Shown in pieces: positions 21,640 through 26,879 of a stretch of DNA of 64,000 nucleotides. Under the pieces are notes generated by a model that was given only the letters and a program-made list of their open reading frames with translations, did no database searches and was not told the origin of the DNA. Origin of the DNA: Asaia bogorensis. GTDB lineage: Bacteria > Pseudomonadota > Alphaproteobacteria > Reyranellales > Reyranellaceae. The translations under genes were made by a program, and so were the position numbers. The DNA lies in NCBI GenBank assembly GCA_945889625.1, contig CAMDCE010000019.1, forward strand, positions 1 through 64,000, given 5' to 3'. Within the stretch, counting starts at the first letter, position 1, and each line of letters opens with the position of its first letter.

Positions 21640-22524
21640 ATGAACAGCCTCCCAATCGCCAAGCGCGCCCAAATCCTCGGAATGCTCTGCGAGGGAATGT
21701 CGATGCGGGCCGCGTCTCGGCTGGCCGATGTCTCAAACAACACCGTGACCAAGCTCTTGGTCGAGACCGGCATGGCCTGCTCCGACTATCAGGATCAGGC
21801 ATTCATGAACCTCCCGTGCGACAAGCTTCAGCTCGATGAGATTTGGAGCTTCGTCGGCAAGAAGGCTCGCAACATCACCGGCAACGATACGGACAAGGGC
21901 CTGGGCGATACTTGGACGTGGACGGCCATCGACGCTGACACGAAGCTCATTCCATCTTGGTTCGTCGGCGACCGTACCGCGCGGTCAGCAACCATCTTCG
22001 TGTCCGATCTGCGTAAGCGCCTCGCTAATCGCGTGCAGATCACCACGGACGGCCATCGCGCCTACCTCAACGCTATCCGCGCCCAGCCGAATTGGGATGT
22101 CGATTACGCGATGCTGATTAAGCACTACGGCCCAGCACCCGACGGACCGGAACGCCGCTATAGCCCTGCCGAGTGCACCGGCACATCGATGGAAACCGTG
22201 ATCGGTGTTCCCGACTATCGCCACGTCAGCACGTCCTATGCTGAGCGCGCCAACCTCACGATGCGGATGGGCTGCCGTCGCTTCACGCGCTTGACCAATG
22301 CGTTTAGCAAGAAGGTCGAAAACCACGCTTGGGCCGTGGCGCTGCATCTGATGCACTACAACTTCGCGCGCATTCACAAGACGCTGCGGATCACCCCGGC
22401 CATGGCCGCTGGTGTCACCGATCACGTCTGGTCACTGGAGGAGATCGCAGAGCTTGGAAAGCCCACCGCGCCAGCAAAGCGCGGGCCATATCGGCAGAAG
22501 AATCTTGCCAATGCGGCTATCTAG
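21640..22524 (+). CDS. IS1-type DDE transposase
   Basis: 294 residues in one uninterrupted frame, unlike the frameshifted insAB of classical IS1. The N-terminal helix-turn-helix reads KRAQILGMLCEGMSMRAASR followed by LADVSNNTVTKLL. The DDE site is visible: Asp in LQLDEIWSFV, Asp in ITTDGHRAYLNA and Glu in TSYAERANLTMRM. The C-terminus RRFTRLTNAFSKKVENHAWA and HYNFARIHKTLRITPAM is typical of single-ORF IS1-like transposases. No stop or gap, so it is probably functional. Its stop codon overlaps the first base of the right inverted repeat. Confidence 0.9.
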   Translation: MNSLPIAKRAQILGMLCEGMSMRAASRLADVSNNTVTKLLVETGMACSDYQDQAFMNLPCDKLQLDEIWSFVGKKARNITGNDTDKGLGDTWTWTAIDADTKLIPSWFVGDRTARSATIFVSDLRKRLANRVQITTDGHRAYLNAIRAQPNWDVDYAMLIKHYGPAPDGPERRYSPAECTGTSMETVIGVPDYRHVSTSYAERANLTMRMGCRRFTRLTNAFSKKVENHAWAVALHLMHYNFARIHKTLRITPAMAAGVTDHVWSLEEIAELGKPTAPAKRGPYRQKNLANAAI

Positions 22525-22571: not shown

Positions 22572-23743
<1,172 letters not shown>

Positions 23744-24940: not shown

Positions 24941-24980
24941 GCATAGTCCGTCCGGCTGGAATCAGCCGGACGGACTATGC
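24941..24980. repeat. 18-bp stem, 4-nt loop inverted repeat
   Basis: GCATAGTCCGTCCGGCTG (24941-24958) pairs exactly with 24963-24980. The loop GAAT and the next C form a GANTC site. It belongs to a cluster of three hairpins upstream of mutY. Confidence 0.8.
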
Positions 24981-24987
24981 AATCGAA

Positions 24988-25013
24988 GGAAACGCTTCGT
25001 ACAACGCGTTTCC
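24988..25013. repeat. 8-bp stem inverted repeat
   Basis: GGAAACGC (24988-24995) pairs with GCGTTTCC (25006-25013), loop of 10. Middle member of the hairpin cluster. Confidence 0.6.
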
Positions 25014-25049
25014 AGCCAAATTGAACCGCTGAGCGGTTCAATTTGGCTG
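25013..25049. repeat. 37-bp palindrome
   Basis: CAGCCAAATTGAACCGCT, one base, exact reverse complement. It ends 40 bp before the ATG of the DciA-DsbA fusion gene and could affect its expression, or be an extragenic palindromic repeat. Confidence 0.75.
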
Positions 25050-25089
25050 AAAGCCGCACTAGCATAGAGAACGGAGTTTGAAAGGGTCC

Positions 25090-26166
25090 ATGCGGGAAAA
25101 CGGCTTCCGCGCGATAGGCGGTCTGGCCCAGCATCTGACGTCCGGATTGGCCAAGGGCCGCGGCACGTCGATCGCCCGGCTGCGCGTCGATTGGCCGGCC
25201 ATCGTCGGCCCCGAGTTGGCCCGCAGCACGCTGCCCGAAGCGCTGCTGGCCGGTCGCGGTGCCCGAGGCAGCCAGGTGGCCGGAAAGGCCCTGCGGCTGC
25301 GCGTGTCGGGCGCCGTCGCGCTCGAAGTCCAGCACATGACCGGCCAGATCGTCGAGCGGGTGAACGCCTATTTCGGGCACAAGGCGATCGACGATATCCG
25401 CCTGGTGCAAGGCGCCGTCGCCCAGCCGCAGGCGCCGCGTCCGCTGGCCGCGCCCGACCCCGCGACGACGGCGCGGATGGCCAGCCGCGTCGCCGAGGTC
25501 AAGGACCCCGAGCTGAGGGCGGCGCTGGCGCGGCTCGGCGCGCGCATCGCGCTCAGCCGGCGGAGCGTCGTGGTGGGCGTCCTGGGGGCGCTGTTCTACG
25601 CCGACGGCGCGCCGCGCGCCCAGTCGAGCGACGCCGACCGGTTCCTGGCCGTCCTGCCGTCCGACCATGTGCTCGGCAAGCCCAATGCGCCCAACATCAT
25701 CATCGACTACTTCTCGCTGACCTGCCCGTACTGTGCCAACTTCAATGCGGCGGTTCTGCCTGTGGTCCGGCGCGAGTGGATCGACACCGGCCGGGTGCGC
25801 TTCATCTACCGCCACTTCCCGTCCGACTTGGTGGCCACCCGCGCCGCCCAACTCGCCGAGGGCGCCGGGCGGGCAAAATTCTATGACGCGGTGAGCGCCC
25901 TGCTGGGTTCGCAGGTCGACTGGCTGACCGCGGCCGATCCGGAGTCCGAGATGGTGAAGGCGGTCGGCGGCGTTGGCCTGTCGGTCGCCGCCGCCCGGGC
26001 CTGCTTTGCCGACGACCGGCTGTTGAACAAGGTCGTCGCCGACGTGCAGAGCGGCCAGGCCTTGCGGGTGAAGGCGACGCCTACTCTGTTCGTCAACGAG
26101 CAGAACTACGGCAGTCCCGCCGGCGCCGAGGGCATCAGCGCGATTTTACGCCAGATTGGGCGGTAA
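25090..26166 (+). CDS. DUF721/DciA-like domain fused to a DsbA-like thioredoxin domain
   Basis: 358 residues from the ATG at 25090, with GAAAGGG upstream. Residues 1-155 look like DUF721 (LRVDWPAIVGPELARSTLPE, then KALRLRVSGAVALEVQHM and ELRAALARLG). A twin Arg and hydrophobic stretch (SRRSVVVGVLGALFYADG, about 157-174) follows, then a DsbA-like domain with CPYC (Cys212 and Cys215) and the cis-Pro KATPTLFVNEQ. DUF721 proteins (DciA) act in the cytoplasm on the replicative helicase, while DsbA domains act outside, so one chain would have to span the membrane. A GTG at 25570 behind GGCGGAG could instead start a separate secreted DsbA protein. Confidence 0.8.
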   Translation: MRENGFRAIGGLAQHLTSGLAKGRGTSIARLRVDWPAIVGPELARSTLPEALLAGRGARGSQVAGKALRLRVSGAVALEVQHMTGQIVERVNAYFGHKAIDDIRLVQGAVAQPQAPRPLAAPDPATTARMASRVAEVKDPELRAALARLGARIALSRRSVVVGVLGALFYADGAPRAQSSDADRFLAVLPSDHVLGKPNAPNIIIDYFSLTCPYCANFNAAVLPVVRREWIDTGRVRFIYRHFPSDLVATRAAQLAEGAGRAKFYDAVSALLGSQVDWLTAADPESEMVKAVGGVGLSVAAARACFADDRLLNKVVADVQSGQALRVKATPTLFVNEQNYGSPAGAEGISAILRQIGR

Positions 26167-26219
26167 TCATTGACACCCCACAGACTGAATTTCCAAGATG
26201 TGGTAGAGAGGAAGAGTAA

Positions 26220-26879
26220 ATGCGGAATATCTTGATTGTCGCCGGCGGGATCGTCGCGGTGGCCGCGATTGCGGCTGGCGTCTATTTCGGGACCCGTCCT
26301 GGCGCCCCCGGACCGGCGCCGGTGGCCGTGGCGGTGACGCCCGACAAGACCGCTTTGCTCGCCGTCCAGCCGTCGGACCATGTGCTGGGCGATCCCAAGG
26401 CGGCCGTGACCTTGATCGAATACGCCTCGTTGACCTGCCCGCACTGCGCCCATTTCCACACCCTGGTGCTGCCGGAGCTCAAGAAGAAGTGGATCGACAC
26501 CGGCAAGGTGCGGCTGATCTTCCGCGACTTCCCGCTCGACCAGGCGGCGACCAGGGCTGCCCAGCTCGCCGAATGCTCCGGCAAGGACCGCTACTACGCC
26601 GTGCTCGACATGATCTTCACCAACCAGCCGGTGTGGGCCGCCGCCTCCGATCCGATCGCCGAGCTTTCCAAGTCGCTGCGCATCGCCGGCATGGGCGACG
26701 CCGAGGTCAAGGCGTGCCTGGCCAACGATGCCATCGCCAATGCCGTGATCGCCGACTATCGCGGCGGCGAGGTGCTCGGCGTCACCTCGACGCCGACCCT
26801 GTTCATCAACGGCCAGTTGTTCAAGGGCGCGCGTTCAGTCGAGGAACTCGACGGCGTGTTCGCCAAACTCGTCAAGTAG
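26220..26879 (+). CDS. DsbA family thiol:disulfide oxidoreductase
   Basis: 219 residues with AGAGGAAGAG before the ATG. An N-terminal hydrophobic signal or anchor (NILIVAGGIVAVAAIAAGVY) is followed by a Pro/Ala linker and a Thioredoxin_4 domain with active site SLTCPHCAHFH and cis-Pro TSTPTLFINGQ. It is a close relative of the C-terminal domain of the preceding gene (both share PSDHVLG and TRAAQLAE), so the two look like a tandem duplication. Periplasmic disulfide formation is the expected role. It lies 23 bp before smc, a neighbourhood I believe is common in alphaproteobacteria. Confidence 0.9.
   Translation: MRNILIVAGGIVAVAAIAAGVYFGTRPGAPGPAPVAVAVTPDKTALLAVQPSDHVLGDPKAAVTLIEYASLTCPHCAHFHTLVLPELKKKWIDTGKVRLIFRDFPLDQAATRAAQLAECSGKDRYYAVLDMIFTNQPVWAAASDPIAELSKSLRIAGMGDAEVKACLANDAIANAVIADYRGGEVLGVTSTPTLFINGQLFKGARSVEELDGVFAKLVK

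Follow-up and report, generated by a model that had tools for sequence, protein, structure and literature searches.

A DciA–DsbA fusion kept across a genus of Reyranellaceae, with an internal Tat-like junction between its halves

Among the closest described relatives of the gene analysed here are the DciA (DUF721) helicase loaders; DsbA proteins have their site of action outside the cytoplasm. DciA is described as essential in Caulobacter, where it acts on DnaB at replication forks and where leucines 163, 167 and 170 bind DnaB (PMC9825169). Arg106 of DciA is given as a residue that binds single-stranded DNA (PMC12547741), the DciA tail as a two-helix hairpin that contacts the helicase (PMC9865707), and the alphaproteobacterial gene order as mutY - dciA - trx-smc (PMC5109545). 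According to PMC7317946, a Tat signal has paired arginines, a core at least 12 residues long whose hydrophobicity is lower than in Sec signals, and an AxA site, frequently with a basic c-region; other positions of the Tat motif are described there as semi-conserved only.

In the window, by which we mean the whole 64,000-nucleotide stretch of DNA that was analysed, a single open frame on the forward strand holds a DciA half and a DsbA-like half together. This gene, dciA::dsbA1 (25090–26166), runs from an ATG at 25090 to a TAA at 26164–26166 with no internal stop and encodes 358 residues; the ATG is common to all 45 homologous loci that we collected, as is the MREN start in the 20 aligned rows where it was checked. 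The DciA domain covers residues 13–105 (25126–25404; PF05258, 43.8 bits against a cut-off of 24) and is followed by a predicted two-helix C-terminal tail at residues 124–156 (25459–25557). A junction of 22 residues, 157–178 (25558–25623), with its hydrophobic segment at 159–171, then leads to the DsbA-like domain at residues 191–353 (25660–26148), which matches Thioredoxin_4 (PF13462) with 107 bits (cut-off 23.2), with DSBA (PF01323) also above its cut-off in the fusion (29.8 against 25.6 bits), and has a CPYC active site at 25723–25734. The sequence-only reading, which had proposed DUF721/DciA fused in frame to a DsbA-like domain through a hydrophobic segment, is thus confirmed by the Pfam matches and the open frame.

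The fusion is flanked by a mutY-type gene on the opposite strand, a second DsbA-like gene and an smc-type gene. The second DsbA-like gene, dsbA2 (26220–26879, forward strand; PF13462, 139.5 bits), has its own N-terminal hydrophobic segment and is preceded by a promoter-like site, TTGAC...CAAGAT (26170–26199, forward strand), identified by pattern match. Between the divergent mutY and dciA genes lie two perfect or near-perfect palindromes (24941–24980 and 25010–25052), the latter of which recurs once elsewhere in the genome with 3 mismatches (G000:C49:17378-17418). Beside mutY and dciA there is also a DNA methylase gene whose product has a RAMA domain (22610–23743), a combination that we take to be the layout of CcrM, and just upstream of it an IS1-type transposase gene (21640–22524; PF03400, 32.6 bits).

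The DciA half looks intact by sequence and is predicted to serve the replicative helicase. PF05258 matched in each of 20 aligned members (with E-values up to 10 admitted; best 1.9e-13), and Leu142, Leu146, Leu149 and Arg90 are present in all 46 fused sequences, that is, in the window and the 45 loci. These leucines correspond to Caulobacter 163, 167 and 170, and Arg90 to Arg106, by spacing only, no Caulobacter sequence having been aligned; by the same spacing equivalence, the position of Caulobacter Leu119 holds Ile, Val or Leu in the fused sequences. Because a full-length model was weak in the DciA half (mean pLDDT 64), a separate model of residues 1–157 was built from 26 of the 46 sequences. 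This model (pLDDT 73) has a KH-like fold and a C-terminal helical hairpin formed by helices 124–133 and 140–156, the second of which ends where the Arg-Arg of the junction starts; its best match in the PDB is 7ykm, the DciA of D. radiodurans (E 2.5e-4), followed by 8a3v, a Vibrio DnaB–DciA complex (E 1.2e-3). Leu149 stands 7–12 residues ahead of Arg-Arg, and 8 residues ahead in 37 of 46 sequences. Each of the 67 family genomes with any PF05258 match has exactly one, the window's genome (G000) included. A DnaC-type loader may also be encoded: five matches to PF01695 exceed the cut-off in that genome, three of them strong, although these may be IS21 helpers.

The junction was compared in the same 46 sequences, with motifs placed by alignment column. 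Arg-Arg (157–158) and Ala-Gln (177–178) are invariant, although they sit in a stretch where mean pairwise identity is 43–57% (15-residue windows, residues 151–185). The uncharged core that follows Arg-Arg is 13 residues long in 39 sequences (159–171 in the window) and 15 or 16 in the other seven; the alanine lies 19 residues past the first arginine in 38 and 20 past it in the window, and a Lys or Arg falls at most 5 residues from this alanine in every sequence. The best 19-residue Kyte–Doolittle mean of the junction averages 1.21 (range 0.84–1.64; window 1.48), whereas the N-terminus of DsbA2 is more hydrophobic by the same measure (2.44) and has Arg-Arg in none of 43 cases. The putative cut would place Ala at -1 in all 46 sequences and Leu, Val, Ala, Thr or Ser at -3 in 37; the remainder have Pro (6, including the window) or Asp (3), both of which are poor residues for signal peptidase at that position. 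Beyond Arg-Arg the fit to a consensus is loose: Ser or Thr precedes the pair in 10 of 46, and the Lys of SRRxFLK is absent.

As in Tat signals, paired arginines are followed by a core that is moderately hydrophobic and no shorter than 12 residues, and the window's genome encodes TatC. Because the segment begins at residue 157, behind DciA, and not at an N-terminus, we call it Tat-like and do not count it among the classical Tat signals, whose description it otherwise resembles. With its short core, moderate hydropathy and invariant Arg-Arg and Ala-Gln, it looks less like a stable membrane span than like a signal peptide. Searches for signal-peptide families gave no NCBIfam match in six short junction peptides and no Pfam match at the junction in 20 full proteins, and profiles of this kind may miss short internal motifs. 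The Arg-Arg could also be kept for DciA's own sake, given that the unfused DciA of genus g5 ends with RR in 3 of 3 cases. Among 15 unfused DsbA proteins, two (L062 and L069) have Arg-Arg ahead of their own hydrophobic segment, as read by eye.

The fused DsbA half likewise looks intact by the features of its family: a thioredoxin fold with a helical insert, a CxxC motif in 46 of 46 sequences (CPHC in 37, CPFC in 6, CPYC in 2 and CAGC in 1) and the cis-proline, Pro331, in all 45 rows that extend that far. Its nearest solved relative is alpha-DsbA1 of Wolbachia (3f4r), both by sequence (E 5.3e-35) and by fold, and the window's genome contains two matches to DsbB. Of 44 loci examined for DsbA2, 27 have CSHC at the active site and 17 have CPHC, a change that may alter redox properties. 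The site TTGAC...CAAGAT, a pattern built after some of its sites had been seen, is found between the fusion and dsbA2 in all 44 fused-lineage loci that extend that far and between dciA and dsbA in 6 of 8 unfused relatives, with variants discernible by eye in the other two, L052 and L053. Its spacer is conserved across the family along with its ends (CCCCACAG in most loci), which suggests that a regulator is bound there besides polymerase.

How far the fusion extends was followed at three levels. A scan of a genome contig collection gave 45 homologous loci, all with both halves in one stop-free frame, which rules out a chance open frame; the stop codon comes next in 42 of them and one codon later in L018, and L033 and L043 reach contig ends. 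Most of these loci are titled Reyranella, Enhydrobacter, or Rhodospirillales, Alphaproteobacteria or Proteobacteria bacteria, and they include culture-collection and other named strains: R. aquatilis KCTC 52223, R. soli NBRC 108950, R. massiliensis 521 and E. aerosaccus ATCC 27094. At the family level, the fusion profile is covered in one stop-free frame, from position 1 or 2 through to 357 or 358, in 57 of 75 genomes. This count is not independent of the 45 loci because the two sets overlap (L046 and G070, and likewise L043 and G054, look like the same records). Of these 57, 56 belong to the window's genus, which has 65 genomes in the set, and one is the sole genome of genus g4. Three others of the window's genus (G054, G020 and G029) give a partial match that spans the junction, and six of its 65 genomes have no match to the fusion profile. 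None of the nine genomes of genera g2, g3 and g5 is fused; seven of them show separate DciA and DsbA matches. When these seven and one order-level relative were scanned from stop to stop, dciA and dsbA lay in separate frames, with one dsbA in each fetched stretch.

At the class level, PF05258 matched in 363 of 387 genomes scanned; ten frames of at least 309 residues among the matches listed were fetched, and all ten lack the fusion, seven having a separate dsbA and three no dsbA in the stretch. With the fusion profile against 385 class genomes, only four among the matches listed, all from the window's genus, cover positions 1–358 in one open frame, and in G304 and G121, likewise among the matches listed, the match crosses in-frame stops. 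In G304, which belongs to another family, one in-frame TAA lies between dciA and dsbA. In the unfused genome G074 (L054) a single TAG parts dciA from an open stretch in the frame of dsbA, so one change would already join the frames there.

Trees built from 19 of the 46 fused sequences place the fused DciA domains in one clade (100/98; seven class-level rows were omitted from this tree) and the fused DsbA domains in one clade (100/98), which fits a single origin of the fusion and does not prove it. In the sister genera dciA and dsbA are separate genes. As the promoter-like site now stands ahead of dsbA2, by position dsbA2 is the resident gene and dsbA1 an extra copy that lies between dciA and this site. 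In the DsbA tree the fused clade groups with the DsbA2 proteins of the genus, weakly and on long branches; dsbA1 may be a local duplicate.

Several accounts of this architecture can be weighed against one another. The least probable, with a negligible chance in our estimate, is that a base error in sequencing or assembly deleted a stop codon. Unfused relatives do have a stop at this place and the window's genome is split over 132 contigs, yet the open frame is shared by all 45 loci, named strains among them, and is carried by the single-contig genomes G012, G049 and G052. The sequence-only reading had suggested aligning homologues to see whether a stop is normally present, and had named a stop or frameshift between the domains as evidence against itself; no fused locus has one, and with 45 of 45 loci and 57 of 75 family genomes fused we reject sequencing error as the cause. 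A second option raised by that reading, that two proteins come from one message with a separate DsbA made by internal initiation, also fares poorly. The GTG at 25570 and the GGCGGAG at 25559–25565 on which it relied are both present in the window, but the latter falls within the codons CGG CGG AGC of Arg157-Arg158-Ser159, and a start past Arg-Arg would omit the invariant motif. A start codon with a Shine–Dalgarno-like site 0–8 codons past Arg-Arg occurs in the window only (1 of 46) and is missing from L002, which is 86% identical. In-frame start codons as such are frequent near the junction, both within 12 codons before Arg-Arg (20 of 46) and 0–8 codons after it (30 of 46), and leaderless or weak starts are possible. 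Against this, starts before Arg-Arg have a Shine–Dalgarno-like site in L004 and L041 only, and over the whole range from -20 to +24 codons just 7 of 46 sequences combine the two, at differing positions. Synonymous excess at the junction is also low (0.00–0.09, with 0.13 as the mean for the gene), which gives no sign of constraint on a hidden start signal. No internal start is conserved, and we regard internal initiation as very improbable.

The remaining accounts keep a single chain and differ in where its DsbA half resides. It could stay in the cytoplasm and act on DciA as a redox switch or chaperone, with the junction as a mere linker. DciA itself is cytoplasmic and the halves are covalently joined, but Arg-Arg and Ala-Gln are kept in every fused sequence and the 13-residue core in 39 of 46 (15–16 residues in the others), and in unfused genomes the related DsbA proteins have a hydrophobic segment at the N-terminus, as read by eye; this account is improbable, if slightly less so than internal initiation. 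A location outside the cytoplasm is what we predict, with the signal-like junction as the sole argument for it. The junction could then be a single uncut span that tethers DciA permanently to the inner membrane with DsbA outside, in the same frame and orientation as the reading that we prefer. The poor -3 residue of the window and eight other rows speaks for such an anchor, as does the occurrence of uncleaved Tat signals in Rieske proteins (PMC7317946). By contrast, a core of 13 residues is short for a span, its hydropathy is below that of the DsbA2 N-terminus, and Ala-Gln is invariant. These last features make a cut signal seem more likely to us than a lasting anchor, with the -3 residue of some rows opposing, and we consider the uncut span unlikely, though the most serious of the rivals. 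The reading that we prefer, at somewhat better than even chances, is one chain with DciA inside and DsbA exported, for which Tat is the probable route and Ala177 the probable residue after which the chain is cut. The one-chain option of the sequence-only reading, with a replication domain inside and a disulfide enzyme outside, fits best on the present sequence evidence, save that its membrane segment appears signal-peptide-like and not a stable span.

On this cut-signal reading, the first 156 residues of the expressed protein would form a complete DciA, comprising the KH-like domain and the two-helix DnaB-binding tail, and would be kept in the cytoplasm. The end of DciA would serve as the n-region of an internal signal peptide made up of Arg-Arg, a core of 13 residues and Ala|Gln, which would send the DsbA-like domain over the inner membrane in an N-in/C-out orientation, most likely by Tat, a Sec route also being possible. 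Signal peptidase would probably cut after Ala177 and free the DsbA domain in the periplasm. The cut DciA would then carry a C-terminal remnant of the signal peptide, some 20 residues long, close behind the DnaB-binding leucines; for as long as it stayed on, this tail would keep DciA at the membrane.

More broadly, the join affects the single DciA match that each genome was found to have, and it is kept across the genus. As for any effect on replication, either a replication factor would tolerate a membrane-seeking tail or replication and export would be linked. In a bolder form, which we consider possible but doubtful, the helicase loader would be made genus-wide as the n-region of a Tat-type signal, so that Tat transport and cleavage would deliver, and perhaps release, DciA at the inner membrane and thereby couple the export capacity of the envelope to helicase loading. 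The fusion would also be a natural case of a soluble domain ahead of a Tat-like signal. Both protein families are known, and an earlier description of their joint architecture is possible: we found no DciA–DsbA fusion described in the full-text literature searched, a scope outside which the main survey of DciA diversity falls, and in the available portion of PMC5109545 the words 'thioredoxin' and 'fused' are absent and 'fusion' occurs once, for two-hybrid clones.

Compared with known systems, the N-terminal half belongs to the same family as the DciA/DUF721 loaders of Caulobacter and Vibrio, shares their key residues by spacing and has DciA structures (7ykm, 8a3v) as its best structural matches. 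Whereas the Caulobacter and Vibrio proteins end after the helicase-binding tail, the fusion continues past this tail with a signal-like segment and then a DsbA domain. Its locus, beside mutY and smc, is the usual alphaproteobacterial place of dciA; the join and the extra dsbA are unusual. The fused DsbA has CxxC, cis-proline and fold in common with the alpha-DsbA1 type of Wolbachia but differs from it in lacking a start codon of its own, in standing behind DciA and in being followed by a second, separate dsbA. Finally, in the actinobacterial Rieske proteins, as PMC7317946 describes them, a Tat-type signal likewise comes after other protein segments. There, membrane helices placed by Sec precede the signal; in the fusion, by contrast, a soluble replication factor precedes it, and cutting seems likely.
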